Assembly (NCBI GenBank): GCA_016200355.1
Contig: JACQEY010000078.1
Coordinates: 1-58,987 of the forward strand
Source: Nitrospirota bacterium
GTDB lineage: Bacteria; Nitrospirota; Nitrospiria; Nitrospirales; Nitrospiraceae
Reading direction: 5' to 3'
DNA length: 58,987 bases
Each line of letters starts with the position of its first letter. Position 1 is the stretch's first letter. Position numbers and translations under genes: made by a program. Positions 20,043-43,734 of the stretch are shown here, one piece after another. The notes under the pieces are model-generated. The model ran no database searches. It saw nothing but the letters and a program-made list of their open reading frames with translations, and was not told where the DNA came from.

Positions 20043-20951
20043 TTAGAAGCGGTAGCTGGTCCCCAAGCTGATCCCATAGTCAGGCGCTCCATTGGAGACC
20101 CCCACCGTCACCCCTCCGGTGAACCGCCAAGCCGAGGAGGCCTTATAGTTCATTGCAAAAAAGACATCTCGGATATTTTGCCGCCCGGACACCAGCGACC
20201 GATACTCCTCGAAATAGACGCTCCCGAGAAGATTATTGGTCACGTAATAACCAACCCCCGCGTCATGCCACCATTGGTTTCTAAGGTTGAGTCCATCGGG
20301 TCTGCCGATCACATTGAATCCGCCGTCGAGGAACGTGATCCATCTATCCCCCAAGCGCTTCGACACCTCCATGCCCACGCCCTCGTCCATCTCGCCGGTA
20401 CCGAGACCTTGCGAGGCACTGGCCGTCGGAAGTTTGAGGCGTCCTGTCACGGCAATCAGAGGAATCCAGTCTTTTTCATCAACGAGGTAGTACCGCCCCC
20501 TTAGGATGATGTCGCCGAGACCGGACGTCGTCACTTTTTGACCGGTCGTGCGGCCAGTCAGGCAGGATGGTTTGTCTTCACCTAGCTCACAGCGACCTCC
20601 TCCTCCTGGCCCGCTATTACTGCCGCGGTTATCTTGGACTTGAACGGGGTTTCCTCCCACGAAAGTCGATCGTCCATCTGTTGTTGCCATGACAAATGGA
20701 ATAACCAACGTCACATCGCCGTCCCTAAATAATCTCCGAATCGATAAAGGCGCGTAAAAAAATGTGCTCGTCGTATTCGTCCCAAAATTCCCGCTGCTAT
20801 AGCTGGGAGTGGATCCTATTTGCCAATTCTGTTCCGACGCAACAGACCCTTGCTCGCTCCTCGGCTTGTCTTGCGCATCGCTTACTAAAGGCATCAGACT
20901 AAGCGAAAGAAGAAACATTACACCTACACACAGACATTTCCACACTCTCAT
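20043..20951 (-). CDS. Outer-membrane beta-barrel protein (phenol-degradation/MetA-like transporter family)
   Basis: The 302-residue protein has a signal peptide ending VSDAQ and then alternating beta-strand segments (for example YSSGNFGTNTTSTFFYAPLSI, GLGDIILRGRYYLV). It ends in SYRF, with the C-terminal Phe of outer-membrane proteins. It fits the 'transporter' barrel family often found in environmental bacteria. A Cys-containing loop (GGGRCELGEDKPSCLTG) lies in the middle. The start follows GGAAGGGCGAG. Confidence 0.75.
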   Translation of the reverse strand: MRVWKCLCVGVMFLLSLSLMPLVSDAQDKPRSEQGSVASEQNWQIGSTPSYSSGNFGTNTTSTFFYAPLSIRRLFRDGDVTLVIPFVMATTDGRSTFVGGNPVQVQDNRGSNSGPGGGGRCELGEDKPSCLTGRTTGQKVTTSGLGDIILRGRYYLVDEKDWIPLIAVTGRLKLPTASASQGLGTGEMDEGVGMEVSKRLGDRWITFLDGGFNVIGRPDGLNLRNQWWHDAGVGYYVTNNLLGSVYFEEYRSLVSGRQNIRDVFFAMNYKASSAWRFTGGVTVGVSNGAPDYGISLGTSYRF

Positions 20952-21439
20952 GACTCGCCCTTCCTCTGCCGACTTACCCCAGCCAAATTATCGTGTCAAC
21001 AATGCTTCCGGTCACTGCCTTCTTCGCCTGGCTCGCATCTCGTTCCGCACCAGTTGTACTTCACTGACAACCATGCCCAGATTGAAGCCGAGAGATCTTG
21101 GAATCTCCCCCCAGCCCATCTTCTGGGATGAATGTCGCAGACTATCCAAGCGGCTCCGTCATCGTGGAACAATTTTTTGGTTTGTCTTCGTCAGTTCCTG
21201 TGCCAAGCTGAGACGGATTGCGATATCCCACAACCTGGTCTCGTGTCATACGATTTTCGACCATTCGCAGTTTGACGTTGAATTGCTTGGTCAACGTGTC
21301 GGCATGGCTCTTTCATGAAGAGTAACTGGAGCCGCGTGACCGGTTCAACCATGCGCACGTGACCGCAATTCACAATGAGGTCGGCGCCGAGCCATTCTCG
21401 GCGCTGCCCGCGCGCGCTTACGGTCTCGCTGACACCAAA
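20952..21439. other. Spacer of 488 bases, no gene recognised
   Basis: No frame here has a convincing start, ribosome-binding site or protein-like composition. A small perfect stem, GCGCCGAG with CTCGGCGC, at about 21387-21407 lies 33 bases after the stop of the R/P/E-repeat gene (minus strand) and could help to end its transcript. Otherwise I see nothing. Confidence 0.5.
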
Positions 21440-21946
21440 TTAGTGGCGTCCGGACCGTTCCGGTCTCTCCGGCCGCTCCGGTCTCTCCGGCCGCTCCGGT
21501 CTCTGTGGCCGTTCTGGTCGCTCAACACTCTCCTGTCTGTTTGGTCGATCCATTTGTGCCGCACGGGCATTGTCTCGCCCCTCCCGGCCATGTTCACCAG
21601 CCACTTGATCGGCTCGATCAAGCCCGCGGAGATCACCGCCAGTATTCGCACGGCGATCCTCCCGCCGATCGAGATGACGGCCCTCGCGACGATCTTCCTG
21701 CCGTACATCACCCGCCTGCGCCACACGAATATCATCTCCACTGCGTCGACCACTGTGTCCATCCGGTCCGCTGCTCACCGACCCTGGGCCACTATTGAGA
21801 GAACCGGGCCCTCTGTTATCCATTCGCGCTGCCGGATCTCCGCTTGGCTCACTCGATTGGCCAACCGCCGGGACACTGACCAAGAACAGGCCGGCCACCA
21901 TACCAGCCGCCACTTCTTTCCAGCTCACAGATCGTACATGTTTCAT
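21440..21946 (-). CDS. Secreted R/P/E tandem-repeat protein, 168 aa
   Basis: The start is supported by GAGGAGTTCGACC. A signal peptide ending PAVGQ is followed by a low-complexity region with Gly/Ser/Pro, then the segment DVRQEDRREGRHLDRREDRR shared in style with the D/R/Q protein at 16548. The C-terminus has six RPE units (ERPERPQRPERPERP) encoded by a 9- or 18-base DNA repeat. It is probably disordered and extracytoplasmic. It lies 36 bases after the stop of the DUF5666 lipoprotein gene on the same strand. Confidence 0.7.
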   Translation of the reverse strand: MKHVRSVSWKEVAAGMVAGLFLVSVPAVGQSSEPSGDPAARMDNRGPGSLNSGPGSVSSGPDGHSGRRSGDDIRVAQAGDVRQEDRREGRHLDRREDRRANTGGDLRGLDRADQVAGEHGREGRDNARAAQMDRPNRQESVERPERPQRPERPERPERPERPERSGRH

Positions 21947-21982
21947 GGTCGAACTCCTCTACCTTGCTACAGGCCTTACGGT

Positions 21983-23464
21983 CTAACGTCCATCTTCCAG
22001 CTCTGCTTCGCGCCACGTCACCACACTACCACTCAATCGGCCATTCATCTTGACGAGCGTTCCCACCTTCACGGCATTGAAGAAGGCTGCTCGTCCGATC
22101 GTTCCGTCATCAAGTCCTTTGAAGTTTGCATCGGCAATGCCGGAGGTATCTACGGCAACCCCCAAGATCGTGAGAGTCGGATTCGATGGCGCCTGCACTG
22201 GACCCTGGAGATCGACGTCGTCACCCGCCGAGCGTTGCTCGACGCGTGTGGCGAGCACCGAAGTACTGCCTCCCACACGACTGCGCACACGCACGTGATC
22301 GCCGACCAGCAGATCGTTCAGATCGATGATCGTATTCCCGCCGTTTGCCTTGAGCTCGGTCTGGCTGTTCACGCTGACCGTCACTCCCGGGAGGCCGGTG
22401 ATCGTAAAGGTTTTCGATACAAGATTGATCTCCGCAATGTTGCCTTCCAGCTTCACGCTGTCTTCGAACTTTACTTCCTTCGCTGTCAAGACACCGTTCG
22501 TCAATCGTCCCTCGGCAGACAGTTTCGTACCTAAGACGATCTCGTCGATCATGCCGCCACGAAATTCCGTCGCCGACGTGGTTTGAACATGGGTGTTGCC
22601 GATGAAGAAATCTCCGGGGCCGAGCACCTGTTTCACAAACCCCTCGATTTCAAATTCATCCGAATCTCCGACAGCCGGATTCTCCGGTTCGACCATGGTG
22701 GCCACCAAGGTGCCTTGTGTTTGCACGTTGGGACCTGGCGTAAAATTCGTACCCTTCGCTTCGATCAGCAATCCGTTCCAGCTATTGCCGGCTGGATTCG
22801 GCATGTCACCGATGTTCGCAGTCTTATAATCCACCGTGAGGTTACCGATCTGAAAGGTTTTGGCCCCATCGTTGTGATTGTTGACAAAGCCCCGAACCTC
22901 CGGCGTCACTGTCCCAACCGCCTTCTTCTCGATGAAGGTCGCCTGGATGACACCGTCTGGCTTGATAAACCCATTCACCTCAACCGAGTCTGTCCCGGCA
23001 ATGAGCTTTCGGATGTCGCGATTTTCCTTAGGAAGAGTCGAATCTATGCTGTCGTCAATTCTCGTGCTGGAATCAAGCTGAACCAATTGGCCCAGCACCA
23101 CAAGACTCAGCCCGTCTGCCGCAACCAACTGCACCAACCCTTCCACCGCATCCTTCTGCCGTACTGAGCTGGCAGACCGATCATTGCCACTGAACGATCC
23201 CCTGACTTCGACCATCATGCCGAGTTTGAGATCGTTCTGACTCCCTGGTTGATCGTCCACGATGAACGAAGCCTTGCTCGTTTCGAACTTCTTGCCGTTC
23301 ACAAACACGCTGCCGAACCCGGTGATTATCCCAGAGGCCGCAGCCGATCCGCTGGCAACTCCAGTTCCAGGGGAAGCTCCGCCCCCTCCACTGCCGCAGC
23401 CGCCTAGTAACCCGGCTAACCCGACCGTACCAAGAAAATAGAAAAGGATGGATGACCGTCTCAT
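21983..23464 (-). CDS. Lipoprotein with DUF5666-type repeats
   Basis: The 493-residue protein has a lipobox LLGGC at about residues 19-23 and a Gly/Ser linker. It then has repeated beta domains of about 70 residues, each with a pattern such as VEGLVQLVAADGLSLVVLGQLVQLD or IEGFVKQVLGPGDFFIGNTHVQT. This is the DUF5666 (OB-fold-like) pattern, with around five or six copies. The function of this family is unknown. GGAGGTTGTTCC precedes the ATG. Confidence 0.75.
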   Translation of the reverse strand: MRRSSILFYFLGTVGLAGLLGGCGSGGGGASPGTGVASGSAAASGIITGFGSVFVNGKKFETSKASFIVDDQPGSQNDLKLGMMVEVRGSFSGNDRSASSVRQKDAVEGLVQLVAADGLSLVVLGQLVQLDSSTRIDDSIDSTLPKENRDIRKLIAGTDSVEVNGFIKPDGVIQATFIEKKAVGTVTPEVRGFVNNHNDGAKTFQIGNLTVDYKTANIGDMPNPAGNSWNGLLIEAKGTNFTPGPNVQTQGTLVATMVEPENPAVGDSDEFEIEGFVKQVLGPGDFFIGNTHVQTTSATEFRGGMIDEIVLGTKLSAEGRLTNGVLTAKEVKFEDSVKLEGNIAEINLVSKTFTITGLPGVTVSVNSQTELKANGGNTIIDLNDLLVGDHVRVRSRVGGSTSVLATRVEQRSAGDDVDLQGPVQAPSNPTLTILGVAVDTSGIADANFKGLDDGTIGRAAFFNAVKVGTLVKMNGRLSGSVVTWREAELEDGR

Positions 23465-23493
23465 GGAACAACCTCCTGGTTATGAAATGATGG

Positions 23494-23934
23494 CTAAGAT
23501 TGTGGTTTTGAATGATCGTCTGTCGGCGACCCAGCCGGCCGTGGCCCATCGGCCAGCACGTCTGCCGACCAAGTCACATGAGCCGGGCACCACTGCCACA
23601 CGCCGAGGGTGATGATTCTGGTGAGGCCAGCCGGAATGCAGGCCATCGTGTTGACAGACACATCGCGATTGACAACCCGTGTCGAAGCCCCGCAACGACT
23701 CAGATAGGCCTCGCTGGAGACTTTGTGCAGATCGAAATGAGGCACGAAGAAGGCGACGACTGGAACCGGCAAGATCGCGAGCGACGAATTGTCCGCCCAC
23801 TCGCTCCCAGCACAGTGACCGTCCAATCCTGCCGTCCGTTTCACATCGTCGCGAACCAGCGTCGACGTGCAACCCGATACCAGTAGAGTGATGGACAGAA
23901 GTAACGCGCCCGTCTTCGAATAGACCTGTTGCAT
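23494..23934 (-). CDS. Small lipoprotein, TRL-like
   Basis: The 146-residue protein has a clear lipobox LVSGC near residues 18-22, after AGGAGGGTTCT. The mature part contains four further Cys residues (GHCAGSEW, LSRCGAST, MACIPAG, WQWCPAH), likely paired in the periplasm. The pattern NRDVSVNTMACIPAGLTRIITLGVWQWCPAHV resembles the TRL/BhsA-like small lipoprotein group, but I am not sure. It lies 29 bases before the DUF5666 gene on the same strand. Confidence 0.65.
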   Translation of the reverse strand: MQQVYSKTGALLLSITLLVSGCTSTLVRDDVKRTAGLDGHCAGSEWADNSSLAILPVPVVAFFVPHFDLHKVSSEAYLSRCGASTRVVNRDVSVNTMACIPAGLTRIITLGVWQWCPAHVTWSADVLADGPRPAGSPTDDHSKPQS

Positions 23935-24009
23935 AGAACCCTCCTTCCAGCCTCATCTGATGGGTTAGACGGAGGAGAAGAAGAAAGGTAAATAGGGAAG
24001 GCGGGCGCC

Positions 24010-24720
24010 CTACCGGACGTCCTGGAAGAAGGCGCGGGGCAGCACCGGCAGGCGAAATTCGACGTAGAGAATGATAAGGAGTACGCGGAAAAAGCTGCGC
24101 CAGACGCCCATCTTCAGAAACTTTCTGGCGTCGGTCACGACGGAAGGCGAGAGCAGGAGCGGCGTAGTTACGGCTATAAGGCGCTCGCAAAAGGCTACAT
24201 CTTCGAGGATGGGTCGATTGGGGAACCCGCCGAGTTGCTCGAATAGTACGCGGCGGACGAAGAGGGCTTGATCGCCGTAAATGATCCGGCTGCGGATGCA
24301 ACGAAAATTATCCAGGAACGAGATCAGCTTGAGCCGCCAGTCGTCGCCGGAGAACTGATGCATGAACCCACCGGCCTGGATGGTCTGGTCCGCCTCCATC
24401 TCATTCAGCCGCTGAATCGCACCGGATGGCAAGACTGTATCGGCATGGAGAAAGAGGAGCCAGTCGCCGTTCGCCTGCTTTGCTCCAGCGTTCATCTGGA
24501 AGGCACGGCCTTTGGGAGCGGTCAATAGCAGACGTGAGGGGTGAAGGGTAAGGAGTGGGGGGGTCTCGAAATCAAACTCGGGAAGCGCGGCGAGCGTGCG
24601 ATCGGTACTGCCGCCATCGACGACGAGGACTTCGTAATCGCCTTGTTGAGTAAAGAGCGCGCGCAGTGTCGCAGGAAACGCTTTCTCCTCATTATAGGCG
24701 GGAATAACAACTGAAACCAT
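24010..24720 (-). CDS. TIGR04283-type family 2 glycosyltransferase
   Basis: The 236-residue GT2 enzyme begins VSVVIPAYNEEKAFP, has DGGSTDRT at about 36-43, the nucleotide-sugar loop KGRAFQMNAGAKQANGDWLLFLHADT (with the HAD form of the DxD motif), and GGFPNRPILEDVAF. This matches the TIGR04283 family ('arsenosugar biosynthesis-associated' by name only). It ends the four-gene operon 27176-24010. A low-complexity run at 24533-24565 is inserted in frame between DGGSTDRT and the KGR loop (residues about 52-63, LLTLHPSRLL). Confidence 0.85.
   Translation of the reverse strand: MVSVVIPAYNEEKAFPATLRALFTQQGDYEVLVVDGGSTDRTLAALPEFDFETPPLLTLHPSRLLLTAPKGRAFQMNAGAKQANGDWLLFLHADTVLPSGAIQRLNEMEADQTIQAGGFMHQFSGDDWRLKLISFLDNFRCIRSRIIYGDQALFVRRVLFEQLGGFPNRPILEDVAFCERLIAVTTPLLLSPSVVTDARKFLKMGVWRSFFRVLLIILYVEFRLPVLPRAFFQDVR
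24533..24565. repeat. In-frame GGGGTGAAGGGTAAGGAGT-type repeat
   Basis: A purine-rich tandem of degenerate 7-8 base units sits in the glycosyltransferase gene and is read through. It is the same type as at 3112-3150. Confidence 0.7.
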
Positions 24721-24733
24721 CGTTCATTCCCCG

Positions 24734-25390
24734 CTATACGCCATTAGGCATCGACTCTTGTGAGAGCCACTCCGGCAGAAATGTCCGCACATCCTGTGCC
24801 CAAGCCGTAGGGTCTTCGGCGATCGATTCGAATAGATCGCTTAATTTCAGTACCATCTGGTCCGCCAGCGCGAGATAGTCCTGCGCGCGGTAACGTAACG
24901 TCTCCGCGTCAATCCGTCCCTCGGCCATCGCCCGTTCGAGCATGCGCCGACCAAAGCCATGATGAGCTTCCTCTTGCTGAAGCAAAATTCGTCGCAGTTG
25001 ACCGAACGGCGCCGCACGCTTGACCAATCCTTCTTCGATGCGCGTCAGAATCGCTTCGCCCAGTCCTTCAAGAATGACCTGCTCAGCCAGGAATGTTTCA
25101 AGCACATCCTGCCGGGCCAGCGCATCGTCGAGAAGCTGCCGATACTCTTCGAGCGCGGGCAGAAACGGCGTATCACCGAGGTGCCTCGGCGCCAGCCAGG
25201 CAATGGCCCCTTGAAACGCCAAGGCATGCGCAGCCTCCTGACGAGCCTGGCTGAGAAGAAATCGCCGCGACCTGAAATCCGACGCCAACCTGGCCTGTGC
25301 CTTGGCGCATTCATTCGCCAAGCGCTCGCCATGCTCAAGAAATGTCAACAGTCGTGCGATCGGCACTTTCTCGTCATAATGCACCAACAC
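24734..25390 (-). CDS. Ferritin-like diiron-domain protein
   Basis: The protein (218 aa) is helical with two Glu/His pairs typical of a four-helix ferritin-like bundle: SQARQEAAHALAF and ILLQQEEAHHGFGRRML, plus EQVILEGLGE between. This is the metal-ligand pattern of the ferritin/ribonucleotide reductase-like superfamily, so an oxidase or hydroxylase role is possible. I chose the GTG at 25390 because AAGGAG lies seven bases upstream and the frame then overlaps the DUF547 gene end by 17 bases, indicating translational coupling. The frame is open further upstream to 25507, but that part overlaps DUF547. Confidence 0.7.
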   Translation of the reverse strand: MLVHYDEKVPIARLLTFLEHGERLANECAKAQARLASDFRSRRFLLSQARQEAAHALAFQGAIAWLAPRHLGDTPFLPALEEYRQLLDDALARQDVLETFLAEQVILEGLGEAILTRIEEGLVKRAAPFGQLRRILLQQEEAHHGFGRRMLERAMAEGRIDAETLRYRAQDYLALADQMVLKLSDLFESIAEDPTAWAQDVRTFLPEWLSQESMPNGV

Positions 25391-26168
25391 GAGTGATCTC
25401 CTTGGGCGGAATACCGTTAAGACTCCAGTCATAGTCGAGATACTCGATGCCGTAGCCCGGCTGTGCGAGTTCCTTGGCCAATTCAGGATCATCGACATAG
25501 CAAGCAATATAGGCCAGCACCGACCCGGCGGCAGCTGAAAAATCAGATTCGAACCATTTGAAGATCATCGACAGATACGCCACCTTCTTTTCGCGGTCGA
25601 ATCGATTGCGGGTCGGATCATTGATGAAGGCGCGTGCGACTTCGGCCAGCTGCCGATCAAGCTTGTGTCCTCGATAAGTCCAGGGCTGCAATTTGGGACA
25701 GGACGCGGAGGCACAGACGATGGCAAAATGCATCAGTGGCTCGTGGAACTGGGCGATCAAGATCAATCGCTCAAGATCATAGAGATTCACCGTCCGCCCA
25801 CCGACCTGATACTCCCGACCGATGAAATAGCGATAGCGCCCCCAGAGGCTCGTGGGTGAATAGCCGTCGAGGATACCCTTCACCGCGAAAGCATTATAGG
25901 CATTAATCCAGAACGCGAACCGGTCATGTGTCGACAGCTGATTCGGATCGACACGGTCCAATAACGCAACATAAGAAAGAAACCTGCCGTCACCCTCAAT
26001 TTCCGGGTAGTCGACAGCTCCATCGCGCACATGTGCATTCAGGACCGCTTCCCACTGATCCTGCGAAAAGTGATGAGCCGGAAGAGGATTCGTTGGGGAG
26101 AACGAACCGGGGAAGACCGTGCATGCCGTCACACTCAGCAGTAGAACCAACGGCCACAGATTCCGCAT
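25374..26168 (-). CDS. DUF547 lipoprotein
   Basis: The 264-residue protein has a lipobox (LLSVTAC) and a complete DUF547 domain: RFAFWINAYNAFAVKGILDGYSP, NLYDLERLILIAQFHEPLMHFAIVCASASCPKLQPWTYRG and FINDPTRNRFD. The family has a papain-like fold; the conserved Cys-containing HFAIVCASASCP segment and His are present. It is exported and probably attached to a membrane. It sits 12 bases after the radical SAM gene and overlaps the ferritin-like gene start. Confidence 0.88.
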   Translation of the reverse strand: MRNLWPLVLLLSVTACTVFPGSFSPTNPLPAHHFSQDQWEAVLNAHVRDGAVDYPEIEGDGRFLSYVALLDRVDPNQLSTHDRFAFWINAYNAFAVKGILDGYSPTSLWGRYRYFIGREYQVGGRTVNLYDLERLILIAQFHEPLMHFAIVCASASCPKLQPWTYRGHKLDRQLAEVARAFINDPTRNRFDREKKVAYLSMIFKWFESDFSAAAGSVLAYIACYVDDPELAKELAQPGYGIEYLDYDWSLNGIPPKEITRVGAL

Positions 26169-26180
26169 GCTCCCCCCTTA

Positions 26181-27176
26181 CTACAAAGACGCCGTTGTCC
26201 GCCAAGCAGTGATCGGATGGCGCAGGATTGTCCCGACGACCCGGCCATCGAGCCTGTTGCACGACGATCGATCGGAACATGCTTGAATCTCTTGTCGGTT
26301 GAATCGAGCCAATATTTCACTGAGCGACGATTCGAGCAAGTTCCCCACGGAAGGGAACGCCAGACAGGGTGACACATTTCCAGAAGCATCGATAGCAACA
26401 CTGTACCGCCCGGCATCGCAGGGTTCCAGCTTCTGTCCGCGCAACCAGCTCACATTGTCCTCGACGAATTTTCTGAGGTACCCGGATGGAATCAGCTCGT
26501 CGTCGAGGAGTCCGTTGAACACAGCTGCGGCGCTCGATCGATCATACATGAGCAACTCATCAGGTCTGCCATAGGTTCCGACGTTCCAATGATAGGCGCC
26601 CAGCACCGGCAAGAATCCCTGCTCCCGCGCAAATCGCACAACCGCCGGCGCCTCGGTGCGATTGACCTCGCTCACAATGCAGGTGAGAAATTTAGGATGG
26701 GGAAACGTCTTCAGCAGCGCGATCCCTTCCAGCACGTGCTCCAACTGATCGGCGCCGCGAATCTGCCGATACTTCTCTCGATCCAACGTGTCCAGGCTCA
26801 CCGAGATGGCAACCGGCAGCCGGCCCAGTCGCTCGATAAATTGCGGCGTGACCTTCGTGCCGTTCGTAATCAGCGTGAGATGAAAGCCGATCGCTGAGAG
26901 GTCTTCGAGGATCTCCACCAAATCTCGCCGCAACAGCGGCTCGCCTCCCTGTACCAGCACAAACCGCACACCGTCATGATAGAGACAGGAAAAGACTCCC
27001 TGGATTTCTTCCCGGGTCATCTCGTACCGGCCGACATTGAGCGGCAGATCGCAATACCCGCAGGCAGAATTGCACCGGAGATTAACCTGAAATGTGGCCA
27101 GCACCGGCTGGCCGGCTATGAGGTTGGTGAAGAGTTTGAGCCCGTTGCTCAAGATCGTGAAGGGGACTGTCATCAT
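26181..27176 (-). CDS. Radical SAM enzyme with C-terminal Cys cluster region
   Basis: The 331-residue protein has the radical SAM motif CxxxCxxC at residues 35-42 (CNSACGYC), GGEPLLRRD, and ITNGTKVTPQ. The C-terminal part has further Cys residues (EPCDAGRY, SPCLAF, QACSDRSSCNRL), as in SPASM/twitch domains that bind an auxiliary Fe-S cluster. It is the first gene of a tight four-gene run with a DUF547 lipoprotein, a ferritin-like protein and a glycosyltransferase. The substrate is unknown. The start could be residue 1 or 2 (ATGATG); no strong ribosome-binding site is visible. Confidence 0.85.
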   Translation of the reverse strand: MMTVPFTILSNGLKLFTNLIAGQPVLATFQVNLRCNSACGYCDLPLNVGRYEMTREEIQGVFSCLYHDGVRFVLVQGGEPLLRRDLVEILEDLSAIGFHLTLITNGTKVTPQFIERLGRLPVAISVSLDTLDREKYRQIRGADQLEHVLEGIALLKTFPHPKFLTCIVSEVNRTEAPAVVRFAREQGFLPVLGAYHWNVGTYGRPDELLMYDRSSAAAVFNGLLDDELIPSGYLRKFVEDNVSWLRGQKLEPCDAGRYSVAIDASGNVSPCLAFPSVGNLLESSLSEILARFNRQEIQACSDRSSCNRLDGRVVGTILRHPITAWRTTASL

Positions 27177-27375
27177 CTATTCTCATATCGATAGATACGG
27201 CCATATTTGGACAGGCTTGTGCCGTTTTTTTTCTGTCTTCTTTGTATCTCAAAGGCCTTTTCTCGCCCACGCCTCTAACCTGCTGAACTTCCTAGATCGA
27301 TTTCGCGCTAGGCCCGGCACATGCCTTGCTGAGTGGTTCATGGTTGACAGTGACTCTCACCCTGCAAGGAGGTGC

Positions 27376-27735
27376 ATGATGCAGAAGGCAACAAAGAAGA
27401 TGCTCCCGGTGCTGGTGAGCACCCTGGCCATCGTGGCATTGGCGATGACCCCGGCGCTGGCCAAAGACTCAAAAAGCAAGAAGCCCAGCCATTCGTCTTC
27501 AAAGGCGGCGGCTGAAGCAGCCGGCCATCACGATGAAAAACCGGGACCGGCCTGGATGACGCTCGGCGGCACAGTGAAAAAGATCGAGGGCAACGCCTAC
27601 ACCGTGGAAGATTACGAAGGCAACCGAGTCAAGCTGTACGTGGGTCAGGGCACGAAACAGATCAAGCAAAAGAAGGTCGGGGACACCGTCCGCGCGGAAA
27701 TTACGCGAGGCGGCTTCGCCAATTCCATTCAGTAA
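27376..27735 (+). CDS. Small secreted protein with OB-fold-like C-domain, 119 aa
   Basis: The ATG at 27376 follows AAGGAGGTGC. A signal peptide ends at TPALAKD. The mature protein has a Lys/Ser/His linker and then about 60 residues, LGGTVKKIEGNAYTVEDYEGNRVKLYVGQGTKQI, with the look of an OB-fold or DUF5666/BON-like beta domain. The family is not named by me. It ends before a strong terminator. Confidence 0.75.
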   Translation: MMQKATKKMLPVLVSTLAIVALAMTPALAKDSKSKKPSHSSSKAAAEAAGHHDEKPGPAWMTLGGTVKKIEGNAYTVEDYEGNRVKLYVGQGTKQIKQKKVGDTVRAEITRGGFANSIQ

Positions 27736-27782
27736 CCCCTACTTCGAATCCGCGCACCCACCTCACGCGCGGTGGTGTCCTT

Positions 27783-27815
27783 GAACGGGCCGGCCCTGAA
27801 CAGGTCGGCCCGTTC
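27783..27815 (+). terminator. Hairpin terminator
   Basis: GAACGGGCCG pairs perfectly with CGGCCCGTTC across a 13-base loop. It lies 47 bases after the secreted protein stop and is followed by ATTATG. Confidence 0.7.
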
Positions 27816-27850
27816 ATTATGTACCGCATGTACCGCCACGCAGCACGGTG

Positions 27851-28603
27851 TCATCGAGACAACGCCTTCACCGATTTTTGAAAGACAATATCGCCATAAT
27901 AGGCTGTGGCTTGTTCCTTGGTATTGTCCGTATCGCTCATGATCGCGATGCCGTTGATCATCGGTGGCTCCTCCCCAAACGCCTTCATGTAGTCTTCGTA
28001 AATATTCCGCTCTTCGTCGATCCAGATACCCACATTCTGAGTGCCGCTCTCAACGACCACCATCTTGGCAAAATCGGTATAGGCATTCTCGACAATGGTG
28101 CCGACAGGCGTCTTCGTTTCCCAGATATAGTTCAAGGCGGCGATTGGAATATCGCCGAACAGAGCCTGCCCGGCTTTGAACTTGAGCTTCTTGCCAAAGC
28201 TGACCCTGTCGGGATCGTATTCGAAGGTAATGTAAATCCTGGCAGGAAAGTCGTCGCCCTCCTTAAGTGCCACGTCGCTGTGCTGAAGCACGTTGTCTAT
28301 TTTCCAGCGCCATCGGACAATCGGATATTCCTTCGGGTCAATGGCCACCGACTTGATCAGGCCGGAAGCCGAGGCCTCGCTCACCGCCTTCACGATCGCC
28401 ACCCCTCCATCCTTCACCACTTCATAGGAAGTATGCTTGGGTATCTTCTTAAAAGTGAGCGGCTTCCACCCATCGGGCATCGTCTGCCCGACCTGGCTGG
28501 CCGAGAATTTGCCCACCTCAAGGACCATCTCGTCCTGTGCCCAGAGACAGGCTGGAGCCAACAACATCCACGTCGCCAGGAATACGCCCGTCGAAACCAG
28601 CAT
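27851..28603 (-). CDS. DUF3047 secreted protein
   Basis: The 250-residue product (from the ATG at 28603) has a signal peptide ending ACLWAQ. A single DUF3047-type domain follows: YPIVRWRWKIDN, DDFPARIYITFEY, LNYIWETKTPVGTIVENAYT and ATAYYGDIVFQ. DUF3047 proteins are periplasmic and uncharacterised. I chose 28603 because a hydrophobic signal starts there, with GAGGG upstream; the frame is open to 28792, overlapping the flavoprotein gene, but that part looks non-genic. It lies downstream of the flavoprotein on the same strand. Confidence 0.75.
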   Translation of the reverse strand: MLVSTGVFLATWMLLAPACLWAQDEMVLEVGKFSASQVGQTMPDGWKPLTFKKIPKHTSYEVVKDGGVAIVKAVSEASASGLIKSVAIDPKEYPIVRWRWKIDNVLQHSDVALKEGDDFPARIYITFEYDPDRVSFGKKLKFKAGQALFGDIPIAALNYIWETKTPVGTIVENAYTDFAKMVVVESGTQNVGIWIDEERNIYEDYMKAFGEEPPMINGIAIMSDTDNTKEQATAYYGDIVFQKSVKALSR

Positions 28604-28716
28604 CCCACCATTTCCCTCTTTGAGGGCGGGCGTGGTTCGACTTCGACTGCGCGCATCGAACGAGCACCGCTTCATCGTGCGCGTTCTGCGAGCAAGGAAG
28701 TCAACCACGTCTGCCC

Positions 28717-30273
28717 TCATCTCCGTCGCGCCCAAGCAAACAGCTTCATCAGCAGGGCCTTCGTGCGCGGGGTAAAGTGTGCCTTGCGCCAAAGATTCAC
28801 GACCTTCTTATTTACCTCGGCTTGCGTCGGATAGGGATGGATCGTACCGGCGATCGTCTTTGCTCCGGCGCCGGCTTTCATCGCAACTGAAAACTCGCCG
28901 ATCATATCGCCGGCATGAGCCGCCACGATCGTCGCGCCCACAATTTTGTCTGTGCCCTTCTGGATATGGATCCTCGCAAAACCCTCGTCTTCCCCGTCGA
29001 GGATCGCACGATCGACCTCATCAAGCTTGAAGGTATAGGTTTCGACCTCGATGCCCTTCTCCTTGGCATCCTTCTCATACATCCCGACATGCGCCACTTC
29101 CGGCTCTGTGAAAGTACACCAGGGCATGATCAAGGATTCGACGCTGGCATAGCCCAGGCCGAAGGGATGTGGGAATAGGGCGTTCTGAATGACGATCTGC
29201 GCCATGGCATCGGCGGCATGGGTAAACTTGTAGCGCGAGCAAATGTCGCCAGCCGCAAAGATCCTGGGATTTGTCGTCTGCAGCCGCGCATTCACCTTGA
29301 CCCCGTTTTTGTCGTACTCGACACCGCCCGTTTCCAATCCGATGCCTTCGACATTCGGGGTACGGCCGACACCGACAAGAATCTCGTCGACCGTCACATC
29401 GAACTGCTGATCGTGCGAATCTACGGTGAGACGCTTGCCGCCAGCGGTCTTGTTGACTTTCAAATCCTTTCCGCAACAAAGCAGCTTCACCCCGTCGCGC
29501 AACATCTGCTGTTCGACGATCTCAGCTGCGTCTCGGTCTTCATTCGGCAGAATGCCGTGTATCGCTTCAATGAGGCAAACCTGGCTCCCGAAACGGGCAA
29601 ACGACTGCGCTAACTCGCAGCCAATGGGGCCGGCACCGATCACCCCAATGCGTGGCGGCAGTTCCGTCAGCGAGAACACCGTTTCATTGGTGAGATAGCC
29701 CGCCTCTTTCAATCCAGACGTAGCAGGCGCCGACGCTCGTGCTCCGGTGCAGACAGCTGCCTTCGCAAAGATGAGGGTACGATTGCCGGACGTCCCTTCG
29801 ACTTGAATGGTGTCGGCGCCGGTAAAGCGCCCGCTGCCGATGTAGACGTCCACACCCAACTTCGTATAGCGATGAACCGAATCGTTGTGACTGATCTGCG
29901 CCCGCAGTTTTCTCATGCGCGCCATCACTGCTCCAAAGTCGTACTTGACCCCCGGAGGAATATGCAGGCCGAACTCCTCGGCATTCCGTACATCGGCCCA
30001 CGCCCTCGCCGCGCGGATGATGCCTTTTGAGGGCACACAGCCGACATTCAAGCAGTCGCCGCCCATCAAATGTTTTTCGATTAAGGCCACTTTGGCCCCT
30101 AGACTTGCAGCAACGACCGCCGTGATCAATCCCGCGGTTCCAGCCCCTATGACCACAATATTATAGCGGCCAGCCGGTTCGGGATTGACCCAGTTCGAGG
30201 GATGCACGTTGCTGACGAGCATGCGGTTATGCTCATCATCCGGCAGCACGAGACCCTCTTCATGCTGACGCAT
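28717..30273 (-). CDS. Pyridine nucleotide-disulfide oxidoreductase (mercuric-reductase-like)
   Basis: The protein has the FAD-binding GAGTAGL near residues 43-49, the redox-active disulfide CLNVGC at 74-79, a second Rossmann motif GAGPIGCEL, and the C-terminal dimerisation domain with HPYPTQAEVNKKV. The layout matches the MerA/lipoamide dehydrogenase class. It lacks the N-terminal HMA domain and the C-terminal Cys-Cys of true mercuric reductase, so detoxification of Hg(II) should not be assumed. The start ATG at 30273 follows AGAGGA; the frame opens at 30306. It lies 81 bases after the TVP38 gene. Confidence 0.85.
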   Translation of the reverse strand: MRQHEEGLVLPDDEHNRMLVSNVHPSNWVNPEPAGRYNIVVIGAGTAGLITAVVAASLGAKVALIEKHLMGGDCLNVGCVPSKGIIRAARAWADVRNAEEFGLHIPPGVKYDFGAVMARMRKLRAQISHNDSVHRYTKLGVDVYIGSGRFTGADTIQVEGTSGNRTLIFAKAAVCTGARASAPATSGLKEAGYLTNETVFSLTELPPRIGVIGAGPIGCELAQSFARFGSQVCLIEAIHGILPNEDRDAAEIVEQQMLRDGVKLLCCGKDLKVNKTAGGKRLTVDSHDQQFDVTVDEILVGVGRTPNVEGIGLETGGVEYDKNGVKVNARLQTTNPRIFAAGDICSRYKFTHAADAMAQIVIQNALFPHPFGLGYASVESLIMPWCTFTEPEVAHVGMYEKDAKEKGIEVETYTFKLDEVDRAILDGEDEGFARIHIQKGTDKIVGATIVAAHAGDMIGEFSVAMKAGAGAKTIAGTIHPYPTQAEVNKKVVNLWRKAHFTPRTKALLMKLFAWARRR

Positions 30274-30354
30274 CGACAACGTCCTCTCTAATGCACGGGT
30301 AATCATCCTGCGACCTTCTTGTACTGTTACGCCTCTCGTTCGCAGGATTTGCGG

Positions 30355-31092
30355 TCATGCTGGTTTCCCAGACCACTTCTTGTACAGGGTAGGCACAAGC
30401 GCCAGAAGTCCCAGCAACACAAATGCGCCAATCACTCCGGGAGAAGCAATGTCTTGCAATGAATTGATTGTTCCAAGTTGCCGACCCGCGTAGGCATAGA
30501 CAAAGGAGCCCGGGATAATTCCGAGTGCCGTAGCTGCGACATAGGTACCGACATTCATTCGAGTCAGGCCGGATACTAGATTCACCACAAAGAACGGAAA
30601 GAGGGGAATCAGCCGGAGGGTCATGAGATAACTGAACGCATTGCTCGCAAAGCCTTGCTGAACCGGACCCAGCCACTTTCCAAACTTCCGCTCCACCCAA
30701 TCGCGCAGCAAGTAGCGGGAGGCAAGAAACGCGAGCGTCGCACCTGTCGTCGCCCCCAGATTCACGAAGAGCGTACCCCACACAGCCCCGAACAGGAATC
30801 CGCCGGCCAGTGTCAGAATCACCGCGCCGGGAAGCGAGAGCCCCGTCACGGCCACATAGGCCAAGACGAACAACGCAGCGGCTACGGCAGAATGTGTTTC
30901 GGTGAACGACAGCAGGTAGTCGCGATTGTCCTTTAATGACTGCAATGAGAGAACGCGGCCCAGGTCAAAGTAGAAAAATGCGGCCACCGCAACTCCGATC
31001 GCGAGGACCACTGCAATTTTCCCGACACTCAGCCCACTCTTTGCTTGAGAAGATGGCATATCGTTCGTCATGGCGGTTTGCTCGCTTATCAT
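30355..31092 (-). CDS. TVP38/TMEM64 family membrane protein
   Basis: The 245-residue protein has about six membrane segments and the SNARE-associated/DedA-like core: LSLPGAVILTLAGGFLFGAVWGTLFVNLGATTGATLAFLASRYLLRDWV, then LRLIPLFPFFVVNLVSGLT. The family (DedA-VTT superfamily) is linked to membrane lipid distribution in other organisms. TVP38 proteins are often encoded next to a MerA-like flavoprotein, as here. The ATG at 31092 lies five bases after AGGAG. Confidence 0.85.
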   Translation of the reverse strand: MISEQTAMTNDMPSSQAKSGLSVGKIAVVLAIGVAVAAFFYFDLGRVLSLQSLKDNRDYLLSFTETHSAVAAALFVLAYVAVTGLSLPGAVILTLAGGFLFGAVWGTLFVNLGATTGATLAFLASRYLLRDWVERKFGKWLGPVQQGFASNAFSYLMTLRLIPLFPFFVVNLVSGLTRMNVGTYVAATALGIIPGSFVYAYAGRQLGTINSLQDIASPGVIGAFVLLGLLALVPTLYKKWSGKPA

Positions 31093-31125
31093 GGGGACTC
31101 CTATTCCGACTGTCAATGTGGACAA

Positions 31126-35302: not shown

Positions 35303-36259
35303 TTAATGGCCCGTCATCGCAGGGAATAGCACCCGAACCATTTTGATGCAGGCCGGGCCAATAACGACCATAAACATGCTCGGGAAGATAAAGAAAATGA
35401 GAGGCAACAGCAGTTTCACCGGCAACTTTGCGGCCAACTCCTCTGCTTTGAGTCGACGAGTGGTGCGCATGGAATCGGCGTGCACCCGAAGGGCTTGACC
35501 GATACTGGTCCCGAACCGGTCCGTCTGTATGAGGAGCGCGACCAGATTTCTCACCTCTTCCAAGTCCGTGCGATGCGCAAGATTCCTGAGCGCTTCCTGT
35601 CTGGACACGCCGGTTCTCAATTCCAATGCCAAGATGTTCAATTCATCACTCAATTCTGGGTGAGCCCGCTTGACCTCTTCACCGACTCGACCGATAGCTT
35701 GATCCAACCCCAGCCCTGCCTCCACGCAGACGACCATCAAATCCAAAGCATCCGGGATGGCTCGCTGCAGCTTGTCCTTGCGAACAGCGATGGCCCTTCG
35801 CAACCAGTATGCTGGAGCATAATAGCCACAAGCTGCAGCCAGGACATAGAAAAATGTCAATTTTGAAGCACTAGGAAACCCCAACACCTTTGCGGGAATC
35901 ATCGCCAACAGGCAGACGATGACAATGGCCAACAAGAGCTTCGCGCCAACGAAAATGACGGAAGACTTCCCGGAGCGATAGCCCGCGTTGATCAAGAGGC
36001 GACGAGTCGCCCGAACCTTCTCGACATTGGATGGCTGATTGAACTTCCCAAACCATTCCAGCAAAGCCTGCAATTGCGCCTTGAGCACTTCGGCCATTCC
36101 GACAGGAGCCGCTTCAGATTCGGTGGCACCACTGGGTCCGTTAGCCCTGCGCCGCCACGCCTGCAAGGCTTCACGGGAATTGAAATAGAGAAAGACTGCT
36201 GAGCTTGCCAGCATGACTGTAAGAAATGTGACCAGCGCGACGATCAGAGGGACATCCAT
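35303..36259 (-). CDS. tadC: Tad pilus inner-membrane platform protein TadC
   Basis: This GspF/PilC-type protein (318 aa) has the F-domain motif LDLMVVCVEAGLGLDQAIGRVGEEV followed by LALELRTGVSRQEALRNLAHRT and terminal membrane segments (MVVIGPACIKMVRV). It forms the base of the Flp pilus machine with TadB. The ATG at 36259 is preferred because AAGGAG lies six bases upstream; the frame opens at 36286, overlapping tadB. Confidence 0.88.
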   Translation of the reverse strand: MDVPLIVALVTFLTVMLASSAVFLYFNSREALQAWRRRANGPSGATESEAAPVGMAEVLKAQLQALLEWFGKFNQPSNVEKVRATRRLLINAGYRSGKSSVIFVGAKLLLAIVIVCLLAMIPAKVLGFPSASKLTFFYVLAAACGYYAPAYWLRRAIAVRKDKLQRAIPDALDLMVVCVEAGLGLDQAIGRVGEEVKRAHPELSDELNILALELRTGVSRQEALRNLAHRTDLEEVRNLVALLIQTDRFGTSIGQALRVHADSMRTTRRLKAEELAAKLPVKLLLPLIFFIFPSMFMVVIGPACIKMVRVLFPAMTGH

Positions 36260-36269
36260 GGGTAACTCC

Positions 36270-37235
36270 TTAGACCTTGATAGCAACCATGCGCTTCATG
36301 ACGATGGCTCCTGTCACCATCAGAAAACTCCCGACCATGACCATATTCTGCCCCATAGGGTCCGTGAACAGCGTCGACATATAGTCAGGATTCATCACAT
36401 AGAGGGCACCGCCGACAACCAGGGGGAGGCAGAATAAAATAATCCCGGAGAATCGCCCTTCGGCCGACAAGGCATTCACTTTCAGTTGCAATTCGAATCG
36501 CTTGCGGATCAAGCTTGCGAGCGAATCGATGATTTCGGCCAAGTTTCCGCCGGTTTCCCGCTGAACTAACACAGCCGTGACAAAGAATCGTAAATCGACA
36601 CAGTCCAGTCGATCTGTCATATTTTGGAGCGCCTGCGGGAGAGCCACCCCCATAGACGCCTCATCGGCAACACGCTTGAACTCGATACCGATGGGGTCGG
36701 CGGCTTCATCTCCCACCAGCTTCAACCCGACCGAGAAGGCATGGCCGGCGCGGAGAGCCCGCGAGACCAATTCAAGCGCTTCCGGCAATTGACTCTCAAA
36801 CTTCGCCATCCGTTGACTCTTCAGCCAGTAGAGATAGCCGTAAGGAAGGGTGCCGAGTACGGCGGCCATGAGAAGAGCAAACACCCAGGTCTGATGCATC
36901 GAAAAGGCAAGCAGCAGCGCGCCCAGCGCCAAAAGCGGCGTGGCCAGCACAAAGATGCCCAAGGGCACACGACAATCGGCCTGTCGGTGAAGCACACGGA
37001 GCGGTTGGAAACGCCGCACCTTCATCAAGAGATCGTTCAGCCAAGGAATGTCGCTGAATGAGTCCTTCCGCATGATCTCCATTTGCGCAACCGCCTCAGG
37101 GGCCGACCACTTCTGCAGCCGTTCGACCACGCGGTCTGTTCCACGCGGCGACATCACTCGGTAGGCCGCCGCAGAGGCGTACATCACCAAAAGAATCGTT
37201 CCGAAAATGCCGAGTGCGATCAGACCGGTCAACAT
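36270..37235 (-). CDS. tadB: Tad pilus inner-membrane platform protein TadB
   Basis: The 321-residue protein has the GspF-type segment [28 protein letters not shown] and the [23 protein letters not shown] motif. Membrane helices are at the N-terminus and around 85-130 and 250-320. Its ATG overlaps the tadA stop (ATGTTGA), and it stops 10 bases before the preferred tadC start, so the three are coupled. Confidence 0.88.
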
Positions 37236-38542
37236 TCGTACACCTTTTGCGAATCAAACAGATCGGGCGAAAGAGCCACACCTTTGGCAGTCAGTCGCTC
37301 AGCAAACTTTGGGCGAACACCGGTCGCCTTGAATCGGCCTTTGACGTTCCGATTCTCATCGAGACCGGTCTGCTGGAAGGTAAAGAGTTCCTGCAAGGTA
37401 ATGATGTCCCCCTCCATGCCGACGACTTCTTGCAGACTGATCAATTTCCTCGTCCCGTCAGATAGCCGCGCAATCTGGATAATCACGTCTAATGCGGATG
37501 AAACATAATGCCGCATCGCCTTCGCCGCCAGATTGAACCCTGCCATCGACACCAAGGTCTCAATCCTGGTCAGAGCATCTCGACAGGAATTGGCATGGAC
37601 CGTCGTCAAGGATCCGTCGTGACCGGTGTTCATGGCTTGGAGCATATCCAAGCTCTCTGCACCACGAACCTCGCCCACGATGATCCGATCCGGACGCATA
37701 CGGAGGGCATTTTTCACCAAGTCACGCTGCGCGATCTCGCCCTTTCCTTCGAGATTGGCTGGGCGTGTTTCCAGACGGACCACGTGATCCTGGCGTAATT
37801 GCAACTCGGCTGCGTCCTCGATCGTCACGATCCGTTCATTATTCGGGATAAACCCAGACAGCACGTTCAAGAGAGTGGTTTTCCCGGAGCCGGTTCCGCC
37901 TGAAATCAGCACGTTCAGCCGAGCTTGCACAATCGCCTTCAACAACTCGCCGACTTCCGGCGTCAGCGATCGCTTTTCAACCAGGTGATACAGCTGCAAT
38001 GGATCCTTGCTGAACTTTCTGATCGAGAGCGATGGCCCGTCGATCGCAAGCGGAGGAAGAATGGCATTGACGCGGGATCCGTCCGCGAGCCTGGCATCCA
38101 CCATCGGCACTGACTCATCGATGCGCCGCCCGACGCGCGAGACGATCTTTTCAATGATTTTTTTGAGATGGGCATCGTCCTTGAACTGGATAGGTGTCAG
38201 CTCCAGGCGTCCAGATCGCTCAACGAAGACCTGTTTGTGCCCATTCACGAGGATGTCGTTGACGGTCTCGTCCGCCAACAACGGCTCCAACGGCCCCAAC
38301 CCCAGCACCTCGTGCAGAATGTCCTGCGTGATTTGTGTCCGTTCCCGTTGATTGAGCGAGACCGATTCCTCTTGCAGCAATTGCTCGATCAGCTTGGTCA
38401 ACTGGGCAGTCACAGCATCCTGCGACATCGTGCTCAACGCAGTGAGATCGAGCAACTCGATCACACGTTGATGCAGCCGATCTTTTAACTCATGATAGTG
38501 GGCTGTGACCTCAGCCCCGTTGGTCTGTTTCACTGTGAGCAT
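37229..38542 (-). CDS. tadA: Tad pilus assembly ATPase TadA (CpaF family)
   Basis: The 437-residue secretion ATPase has Walker [15 protein letters not shown] near 217, the Asp box, and the Walker B/His region [30 protein letters not shown]. Its N-terminal region ([17 protein letters not shown]) is CpaF-like. It powers Flp pilus assembly on the cytoplasmic side. It is the first of tadABC; a 120-base repeat-containing gap separates it from tadZ. Confidence 0.93.
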
Positions 38543-38562
38543 AGTGTCTACGTGCCCTCCTC

Positions 38563-38632
38563 TACCCGTGAAGCGTGAATCGTATCCTGAAGATCGACGT
38601 ATCTCGTGAAGCGTCGTTCGTATCTCGTCTCA
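38563..38632. repeat. GTGAAGCGTCGTTCGTATCTCG-type low-complexity repeat
   Basis: Degenerate units of CGTGAAGCGT and GTATCTCGT repeat in the gap between tadZ and tadA. Related words occur near 14311-14330 and 31613-31632. Confidence 0.6.
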
Positions 38633-38662
38633 GATCAGACCTACCGAAGGAACGAATGACGT

Positions 38663-39886
38663 CTATACGACCGACGGCTTTCCTTTTGTCTCAGGCCCGA
38701 AGCTCGGGAGATATCGCCCGAAGAATGAAGCCGACTTACTCCGCTCTTTCCCTGAGGGCGTCCCGTTGACTGCAGCCTTCTCGCCGATGAGCTGATCGGT
38801 CCCTCGCAAGTACCATTGTCCGATCGTCGTCCTCGACGCCATGATCGTGAGCGGCTTCCCATGGTCGAGAGCCTCCTTGGCCGTCCCATAGTCGTTCGGA
38901 ATGAGTCCCGCCATCCGCAGGCCCAACAGGTCTTCGGTCTCGTTCAACAAGTCCTTCTGATCGTTCACGTACCGATTGACGACCAGCAACACCTTGCCGG
39001 CTGGGTACTGCGCGGCGCCCAAGGCCTCCAGCAACCGCTTGGTTCGACGGATGGCCGGCAACGAGAGTGTCGTGACGACGATGATCTGATCGGAACAATC
39101 CAGCGCTTCCTTGACCGCCGACTCCAGCACATGTCCGCAATCCACGAAGACATGCCGGTGCATCGATCGGAGGAGACCGATCACACGCATCGTGCTGCCG
39201 GCCGACGGCTCGGCTTCATCAAACCCCTCATAGCCAGACGCGAGAAGATGGAGCCCGGACGCATGTTGCGCCAAGCTGCTCCGGACGATCGTTTCATCCA
39301 GCCGCGAGATGTCTTTCGCAAGATGCTTCAGCCCTTGAGCCACATGGAGGTCCAAGAACAATCCGAGATCTCCGCCGTGCATGTCGAGATCCATCAAGGC
39401 CACCGACTCATGTTGCCGCGCATGCTGGACGGATGTCGCAAGATTCGTGGCCACCGTGCTCGCGCCCACCCCGCCTCTCGCCCCAATCACGCTGACGACT
39501 CTGCCTGGCTGCATCTCCGCACCGGACCCTCGCCCGGTGAATCGCTCTTCGAACCGCGCAAGGGCCGGCTCCACCTCTTGGCGGGTCAGGGGCTGAGGCA
39601 AGAACTCCTTCACCCCGAGCCGGAACGCTTCCAAGAGCATCTGTGGGTCTGTCCGCGAGGCTGTAAGAAACACTTCGAGGTCAGGCGATGCGTTCAGCAG
39701 TTCACGGATGTGGCTAAACGTCTGTTGCGGGCGCGATTCGTCCAATTCGAGCAACAACATGTCCGCCGCGCCGGTCCCCTGCCCTTTGGTGACCAGATAG
39801 TCTCGCCGACGCGAGACGATCTCCTCAAAAGTCTGCCGAGCCGCTTCATTTCGACAGTCAATCGACACTGCAATCAATCGAGCCAT
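38663..39886 (-). CDS. tadZ: Tad pilus localisation ATPase TadZ (CpaE/MinD-like)
   Basis: The 407-residue protein has an N-terminal response-regulator-like domain (residues about 1-115) without an obvious phospho-acceptor set. A MinD/ParA-type ATPase follows with deviant Walker A GARGGVGASTVATNLA near 134, LMDLDMHGGDLGLFLDLH, and VFVDCGH. TadZ places the Tad machine at its site in the cell. The ATG follows GAGGAGACTTGC. Confidence 0.88.
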   Translation of the reverse strand: MARLIAVSIDCRNEAARQTFEEIVSRRRDYLVTKGQGTGAADMLLLELDESRPQQTFSHIRELLNASPDLEVFLTASRTDPQMLLEAFRLGVKEFLPQPLTRQEVEPALARFEERFTGRGSGAEMQPGRVVSVIGARGGVGASTVATNLATSVQHARQHESVALMDLDMHGGDLGLFLDLHVAQGLKHLAKDISRLDETIVRSSLAQHASGLHLLASGYEGFDEAEPSAGSTMRVIGLLRSMHRHVFVDCGHVLESAVKEALDCSDQIIVVTTLSLPAIRRTKRLLEALGAAQYPAGKVLLVVNRYVNDQKDLLNETEDLLGLRMAGLIPNDYGTAKEALDHGKPLTIMASRTTIGQWYLRGTDQLIGEKAAVNGTPSGKERSKSASFFGRYLPSFGPETKGKPSVV

Positions 39887-39913
39887 GCAAGCAAGTCTCC
39901 TCAGTTGCGCAAT

Positions 39914-40987: not shown

Positions 40988-41015
40988 GGTGCCACTCCTT
41001 CGGTCGTTCATCGGC

Positions 41016-41420: not shown

Positions 41421-41441
41421 GGGATACATCCCCTTAGCGGA

Positions 41442-41717: not shown

Positions 41718-41765
41718 TGCATTCTCCTCTTCATTTCTCAGTCAACGACGTTCAACCTGTCTCGT

Positions 41766-43715: not shown

Positions 43716-43734
43716 TGTCGTGCCTCCATGAACC

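Follow-up and report, generated by a model that had tools for sequence, protein, structure and literature searches.

What would be made by a gene set that joins a radical SAM protein, a lipoprotein, a ferritin-like oxidase, and a glycosyltransferase? We addressed this question for four adjacent minus-strand genes in a 58,987-nucleotide stretch (the window) from a Nitrospirota bacterium (GenBank assembly GCA_016200355.1, contig JACQEY010000078.1), which is contig C173 of the source genome and was placed among its Nitrospirota relatives. From upstream to downstream, the genes encode a radical SAM/SPASM(Twitch)-type protein of 331 amino acids (aa) (26181..27176; Pfam Radical_SAM, 83.6 bits, and SPASM, 31.1 bits), a DUF547 protein of 264 aa predicted to be a lipoprotein from its SVTAC16 motif (25374..26168; PF04784, 91.0 bits against a cut-off of 27), a ferritin-like protein of 217 aa with a GTG start, assigned by its invariant motifs and predicted fold as an oxidase resembling aldehyde-deformylating oxygenase (ADO) and R2lox (24734..25387), and a family-2 glycosyltransferase of 236 aa belonging to a diverged clade of TIGR04283 (24010..24720; 209.8 bits against a cut-off of 182). 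A gap of 12 bases separates the radical SAM and DUF547 genes, the GTG start of the oxidase gene overlaps the DUF547 stop by 14 bases, and 13 bases lie between oxidase and transferase. The compact four-gene operon of the original prediction is borne out by these four open reading frames (ORFs), their spacings, and their family matches. Our main finding is that the DUF547, oxidase, and transferase genes form a co-inherited core, and we tentatively propose that this Nitrospirales module acts on a small hydrophobic (lipid-like) molecule by oxidation and glycosylation, with the product then passed to the envelope.

The core genes are inherited together and lie together

Four profile searches were run against the same 295 genomes drawn across the phylum Nitrospirota. 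The oxidase was found in 46 of them at an E value below 1e-30 (48 at the loosest limit of the search), and because one of the 46 (G153) carries only a diverged copy, 45 genomes have a true oxidase. Window-type transferases were detected at 381 bits or more in 45 genomes, all others among the matches listed reaching at most 179 bits, and the two sets consist of the same 45 genomes. The window-type DUF547 protein was present at 416 bits or more in 44 genomes, all within the 45 (other matches, 180 bits or less), G125 being the module genome without it; the 37 genomes matched by the radical SAM model also lie within the 45. Counted by script, carriers make up 40 of the 79 genomes in the window's family and 5 of 18 in its sister family, and within the phylum sample the module was found only in Nitrospirales. 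This pattern of co-occurrence (45, 45, 44, and 37 of 295) argues that the module is gained and lost as a unit. Two other oxidase matches were set aside, one (G034) because it was weak (40.7 bits) and the other three module models were unmatched there, the other (G292) because its stretch gave no match on re-check. On plasmids, the oxidase search gave no match at an E value of 0.1.

Gene order was scored in 42 genome loci and in 79 loci from genome-collection contigs, two series that share places and so are not independent. The second was gathered with peptide search patterns that favor close relatives, and some of its titles are not Nitrospirota and may be misbinned or misnamed (L150, Verrucomicrobiota, 72% identity; L169, Nitrospinota, 53%; L128 and L134, Nitrosospira, 72%). 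Each denominator excludes loci whose flank was too short (limits of 1.5 to 7.5 kb), and four loci with an oxidase paralogue (L063, L064, L156, and L157) were kept where the flank sufficed. In the genome loci, the transferase gene shares the strand of the oxidase gene in 40 of 42 (38 within 150 bases; median gap, −4), and DUF547 precedes the oxidase in 38 of 40 (35 within 150 bases; median gap, 3). The corresponding values for the genome-collection contigs are 69/71 and 71/74. The radical SAM gene lies upstream in 30/39 genome loci and 51/62 collection contigs; it is missing in 9 of the 39, one of them the paralogue locus L064, and is therefore accessory. In cultured Nitrospira moscoviensis NSP M-1 (L145), DUF547, oxidase, and transferase are contiguous at a locus that has no radical SAM gene. 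Most named relatives of the window oxidase at 82 to 88% identity carry the title Nitrospira sp., the exceptions being titled Nitrospiraceae (one) and Nitrospirota bacterium (one).

The loci that lack the transferase are the four paralogue loci (the first two from G153 and G085), where the oxidase is 60 to 63% identical to that of the window and DUF547 was not found either. The original prediction had named a lack of synteny in every other species as the observation that would count against it; what we found is that DUF547, oxidase, and transferase lie next to each other in almost every copy whose flank is long enough, and the existence of the operon as a co-inherited unit is well supported.

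Three further observations concern individual loci. The diverged oxidase of L064 sits beside an 876-aa PPDK_N/PEP-utilizers protein. In G018 (L099, L182), the match to the oxidase is split in two and lacks about 35 residues (94-128), E102 and E107 among them, which reflects either decay or an assembly error. In several lineages (L041, L042, L062, L065, L066, L070, L160, L171, L174, L175, and L177), a molybdopterin oxidoreductase gene located 1.5 to 3.6 kb upstream of the oxidase shares its strand and immediately precedes DUF547 or the operon; its domains, scanned in L070, are Oxidored_molyb and Mo-co_dimer.

The oxidase has a predicted ADO-like fold

Residue conservation was read from hand-picked subsets (oxidase, 33 and 45 rows; radical SAM, 24; DUF547, 24 and 37; transferase, 23), and proteins whose extended match contained an in-frame stop were excluded by the script. 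Sequence models said little about the oxidase. No Pfam family matched at 0.001, and at 0.1 only Phenol_Hydrox (E = 0.069) and no ADO model appeared; NCBIfam gave only a sub-threshold RNR-beta match (E = 0.024), and no ADO among PDB sequences matched at an E value of 10. A PDB profile search aligned the first ExxH stretch of the oxidase with an ExxH stretch of a ribonucleotide reductase (RNR) R2 chain (E = 0.0035 to 0.0044). In the 45-row alignment, E21, E51xxH54, E102, E107, and E139xxH142 are invariant.

An AlphaFold2 model built from these 45 rows (pLDDT, 87.3; pTM, 0.84) was compared with known structures. Foldseek returned the ADO chain 4rc6_A (E = 3.2e-4; TM, 0.79), and the best VIA-align match was ADO 5ux2_B (Z, 24.1; root mean square deviation [rmsd], 2.3 Å over 202 residues). 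The top 21 VIA-align rows were all ADO chains (Z, 21.3 to 24.1), followed by R2lox at about 20 to 21 (3ee4: Z, 20.7; rmsd, 2.6 over 211 residues) and RNR R2 at 19 to 20, these last two not being separable by Z. Helical bundles below about Z 13 may share an arrangement only; the oxidase values lie well above this, with the whole chain covered. Identity to the fold-matched chains is 10 to 22%. In this model, the oxidase resembles ADO in fold and motif and no further, and the invariant residues are putative metal ligands. Long-chain acyl compounds are substrates or ligands of ADO and R2lox. PDB entry 4kvq, in the Foldseek list, is titled with palmitic acid bound.

The partner proteins

All 24 aligned radical SAM rows share a CX3CX2C motif (C35, C39, and C42), a half-SPASM pattern (C253-x12-G-x4-C271), and C300 and C306. 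The nearest NCBIfam model is MoaA, at 82.6 bits against an equivalog cut-off of 325, and sequence matches to 7tol, 6efn, 2fb2, 7vob, and 6c8v reflect likeness to Tes, SkfB, MoaA, and PqqE mainly in the core. We also considered whether this protein is ArsS and rejected it; the one ArsS (TIGR04167) of the genome that exceeds its cut-off sits on another contig, C237.

In the DUF547 protein, the lipobox-type Cys16 is invariant in 37 of 37 rows. Its structural model is confident (pLDDT, 91.8), and compared with PDB folds it gave no Foldseek match at an E value of 0.001, a best VIA-align Z of 4.7, to a 14-3-3 protein, and matches to four adenovirus-protease chains only at E values of 3.7 to 4.9 over 59 to 60 columns. 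The earlier label "papain-like" was not confirmed, as neither program gave anything confident. At two loci that also hold ArsS and VTT/FAD genes (L194, 10511-13168; L196, 4097-6745), DUF547 forms the C-terminal domain behind GH15/trehalase-like domains, a fusion that hints at a role with sugars, and further DUF547 matches from the 295-genome search lie in frames of 726 to 928 aa.

In a tree of the transferases, the eight window-type sequences form a clade of their own that includes no other row, on a stem of 1.44 changes per column (support, 100/99). The canonical TIGR04283 protein encoded on contig C71 of the source genome groups with the plasmid copies L185, L188, and L189 (93/96), the last two of them ArsS linked. 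The tree contains several long branches and has an arbitrary root; it does not resolve the deep order or the long rows L184, L190, and L191. The NCBI name "arsenosugar biosynthesis glycosyltransferase" may be an over-annotation for the window transferase.

Associated and flanking genes

Three further minus-strand genes lie upstream of the operon in the window. They encode a DUF3047 protein (27851..28792, given as ORF bounds, the true start being uncertain; PF11249, 265 bits), a MerA-like flavin adenine dinucleotide (FAD)-containing oxidoreductase (28717..30306; NF004991, 782.5 bits against a cut-off of 620), and a membrane protein with a VTT (TVP38/DedA-like) domain (30355..31125; PF09335, 92.7 bits). 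The oxidoreductase scored 366.7 bits with the mercury(II) reductase model of NCBIfam, under its cut-off of 454. Upstream positions were occupied by DUF3047, on the same strand, in 29/39 eligible genome loci and 45/55 collection contigs, by the FAD oxidoreductase in 28/39 and 41/51, and by VTT in 23/39 and 29/51; at several of the other genome loci, the stretch ends before the position of VTT.

On the 3′ side of the transferase gene, the window holds a 146-aa ORF, a four-stretch DUF5666 protein, and a Pro/Arg/Glu-repeat ORF (21440-23934), the first two of which are also found downstream of the module in several relatives. A Tad/Flp pilus-like gene run at 35303-45206 (prepilin peptidase, CpaB, secretin, CpaE-like, TadA, TadB, and TadC) was recognized by eye from the translations. 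The promoter/terminator scan showed no promoter-like sites and a single terminator-like site, fewer than the mean of 3.9 in shuffled sequence.

Module families recur around ArsS

ArsM and ArsS make a dimethylarsinoyl-adenosyl precursor, and families of the module are found near ArsS in other bacteria. A plasmid of Acinetobacter portensis carries, in order, ArsS, a VTT/FAD fusion, DUF547, TIGR04283, TIGR04282, a methyltransferase, and a phosphate transporter (PiT). Within 14 kb in Burkholderia glumae, TIGR04282/TIGR04283 and methylthioadenosine (MTA) phosphorylase lie some kilobases from ArsS and a radical SAM-DUF547 pair, and in Hymenobacter, DUF547 and TIGR04283 adjoin on opposite strands about 3 kb from ArsS. 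An unannotated Cupriavidus stretch gave tblastn matches to VTT/FAD, TIGR04283, TIGR04282, and MTA phosphorylase. Other combinations are partial: VTT/FAD-DUF547 occurs in Roseomonas and Pseudoalteromonas stretches in which no ArsS is annotated, Thiodictyon pairs ArsS with TIGR04282 and has no DUF547, and a Gloeothece plasmid has TIGR04283 without these neighbors. Annotated ArsS was seen in three of the six DUF547 plasmid stretches opened. In other Nitrospirota families, L192 holds VTT, a TIGR04169 peroxidase-like gene, a DUF3047 gene that abuts an arsenite-methyltransferase-type gene, ArsS, and DUF547, and L194, L195, and L196 combine ArsS with VTT, the FAD oxidoreductase, and DUF547, with TIGR04169 also in L194. 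Of 29 genomes with DUF547 proteins not of the window type, at least 4 encode one no more than about 10 kb from ArsS; in G032 this holds for the GH15-fused form only, and G111 was not judged. The neighborhood link between DUF547 and ArsS is real, though not the rule.

According to the original prediction, the DUF547-TIGR04283 pairing would, if widespread, define a new biosynthetic system. That part is not supported as stated: the pairing recurs in ArsS neighborhoods of several phyla, some of its families already bear the NCBI name "arsenosugar biosynthesis," and since DUF547, TIGR04283, VTT, and FAD oxidoreductase genes cluster near ArsS elsewhere, it does not by itself define a new system. Of the uncharacterized pathway for a modified glycan, lipid, or peptide that it had also suggested, there remain a conserved multi-enzyme operon, a product that plausibly contains a modified sugar or lipid, and an exported component.

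The source genome has the arsenic genes as well. Contig C237 encodes an ArsM-type protein (arsenite methyltransferase, 226 bits, under the cut-off of 263), then ArsS, and a PiT-like protein read from the sequence, and C71 holds the canonical TIGR04283-TIGR04282 pair. At one locus (G282/L039), ArsM, ArsS, and PiT genes lie 5 to 7.5 kb upstream of the oxidase gene on the same strand.

Proposed function and alternative explanations

We infer a series of steps whose order and chemistry are conjectural. The cytoplasmic oxidase, with its ADO/R2lox-like fold, would take into its core a substrate that is long-chain or hydrophobic in some other way and oxidize or trim it at a presumed metal site. Where present, the radical SAM/SPASM protein could make a further difficult C-H or C-C change, after which the diverged TIGR04283 transferase would attach a sugar. 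The VTT membrane protein and the FAD oxidoreductase might serve membrane passage and redox state, and the DUF547 lipoprotein, on the periplasmic side, may act on or hold the sugar-bearing product. The module appears to have been assembled from families that elsewhere surround ArsS, and because of these shared families its product may derive from organoarsenical sugars or be akin to them.

Several observations weigh against this proposal. The lipid-like substrate is suggested by fold similarity at the low identity given above, the DUF547 protein has no confident fold match, and the radical SAM gene is absent from nearly a quarter of eligible genome loci. For any part played by arsenic, the operon has neither an ArsS nor an ArsM gene, both being on another contig, and an ArsM-ArsS pair stands beside the module in only 1 of the 121 loci scanned, some of which are the same place twice and some of which have short flanks. 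ArsS was found in every one of the 45 genomes with the module, and 36 of the 39 family members that lack the module have it too; being near-universal with or without the module, its presence does not discriminate. At least 14 Nitrospirota genomes have TIGR04283-like matches without ArsS, G119, which lacks ArsS, has genes of the VTT, FAD oxidoreductase, and DUF547 families close together, and the window transferase falls outside the clade of those ArsS-linked plasmid copies that resolve.

Among the alternatives, the module might make an arsenic-free glycosylated lipid, isoprenoid, or wax-type envelope component, with a fatty aldehyde or fatty acid as the substrate of the ADO-like enzyme, which we regard as possible and yet rather unlikely. 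The closeness of the oxidase fold to ADO and R2lox and the divergence of the transferase clade would suit such a product. So would the undecaprenyl-phosphate transporters among VTT proteins (the match to UptA is weak, 27.6 bits against a cut-off of 250) and the Pseudoalteromonas VTT/FAD-DUF547 run, which is followed by ABC-transporter genes, a CDP-alcohol phosphatidyltransferase, and a sterol-desaturase-type gene. However, no acyl reductase, acyl carrier, or lipid synthase was found among the ten ORFs scanned around the operon (window 20043-31125), and the oxidase matches no ADO sequence model.

It is unlikely that the operon is instead a late branch of arsenosugar or arsenolipid synthesis, in which the ArsM/ArsS product would be glycosylated and oxidized or coupled with lipid, with VTT and DUF547 depositing it in the envelope. 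The arsenic genes of C237 and C71 in the same genome, ArsS in every module genome, the G282 locus, and the clustering of module families with ArsS in other phyla and families (in L192 and L194 also with TIGR04169) speak for it, but the presence of ArsS in most module-free relatives, the placement of the transferase, and the families found without ArsS, including in G119, count against it. Quite improbable, in our estimate, is that an ADO-type diiron oxygenase, the radical SAM protein, and a dedicated transferase build an arsenosugar-derived lipid or hydrocarbon that VTT and DUF547 display or store at the envelope; if true, nitrifying bacteria would have a candidate arsenolipid route that is defined genetically.

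SPASM-type radical SAM enzymes often modify peptides, and the module could belong to a system for a modified peptide like those that are ribosomally synthesized and post-translationally modified (RiPPs), or for a metal chelate, with the radical SAM/SPASM protein modifying a small peptide. In sister-family Nitrospirales, an MbnB/TglH/ChrH-type enzyme and a DUF2063 partner do lie beside or inside the module (L068, 3262-5418; L069, 6368-8570; L098, 7880-9500), a set that we take to be bufferin-like; L068 and L069 have in addition a small exported protein rich in Cys, and the Pfam scan covered L069. An MbnB-type gene occurs, however, in just 8 of the 121 loci, two of which (L034 and L110, the same place) have only a 42% match on the opposite strand, and the radical SAM gene is dispensable, so we judge this very improbable. 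The coming and going of VTT, DUF3047, and radical SAM genes across lineages might suggest an ordinary stress-response lipoprotein operon of merely co-transcribed genes that form no one pathway, but this has very little to recommend it given three core genes that overlap or abut and are gained or lost together in 44 or 45 of 295 genomes.

We therefore return to the proposal of an oxidized and glycosylated hydrophobic molecule passed to the envelope. Nitrospira are key nitrifiers, and the three core genes, inherited strictly together and including an unassigned ADO/R2lox-like oxygenase, point to a Nitrospira product that is not described in the literature searched. Our searches, which left subscription journals mostly outside, found no paper on TIGR04283, on DUF547 with arsenosugar, or on DUF547 with Nitrospira, and we recognized none as describing the module from titles, opening lines of abstracts, or passages of PMC12159101 and PMC13077682. 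The analysis also ties DUF547 and the VTT/FAD-oxidoreductase pair, and in one case DUF3047, to ArsS neighborhoods in several phyla, and a fusion links DUF547 with a sugar hydrolase; later steps of arsenosugar or arsenolipid synthesis thereby become testable gene by gene.

Comparison with known systems

With ADO, the alkane-making cyanobacterial enzyme, the oxidase shares a full-length predicted fold, a similar size, and two ExxH motifs with additional carboxylates. It differs in its 15 to 22% identity to ADO chains and in matching no ADO sequence model, and no acyl-ACP reductase is encoded by the ten ORFs scanned around it. The fold and the ferritin-like metal motifs are likewise shared with R2lox, whose hallmark is a Tyr-Val crosslink beside the metal site; the oxidase is shorter than R2lox (217 versus 266 to 309 residues in the matched chains), and the scores of RNR R2 chains are almost equal to those of R2lox. 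The radical SAM protein has the CX3CX2C core and half-SPASM Cys pattern of the SPASM/Twitch enzymes MoaA, Tes, SkfB, PqqE, and BlsE, while falling under the cut-offs of the 25 NCBIfam models listed of the 73 matched.

The nearest known system at the level of the whole locus is the arsenosugar neighborhood (ArsM, ArsS/TIGR04167, TIGR04169, TIGR04282, and TIGR04283), with which the module has TIGR04283, DUF547, VTT, the FAD oxidoreductase, and once DUF3047 in common. Such neighborhoods often hold another radical SAM gene, but that of the module is different. The module also has an extra ADO/R2lox-like oxidase and a separate transferase clade and includes no ArsS or ArsM gene inside the operon. 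What is distinctive here is the ADO/R2lox-like oxidase, the MoaA-like radical SAM protein, and the diverged TIGR04283 clade, and it is this oxygenase-containing variant that looks new.

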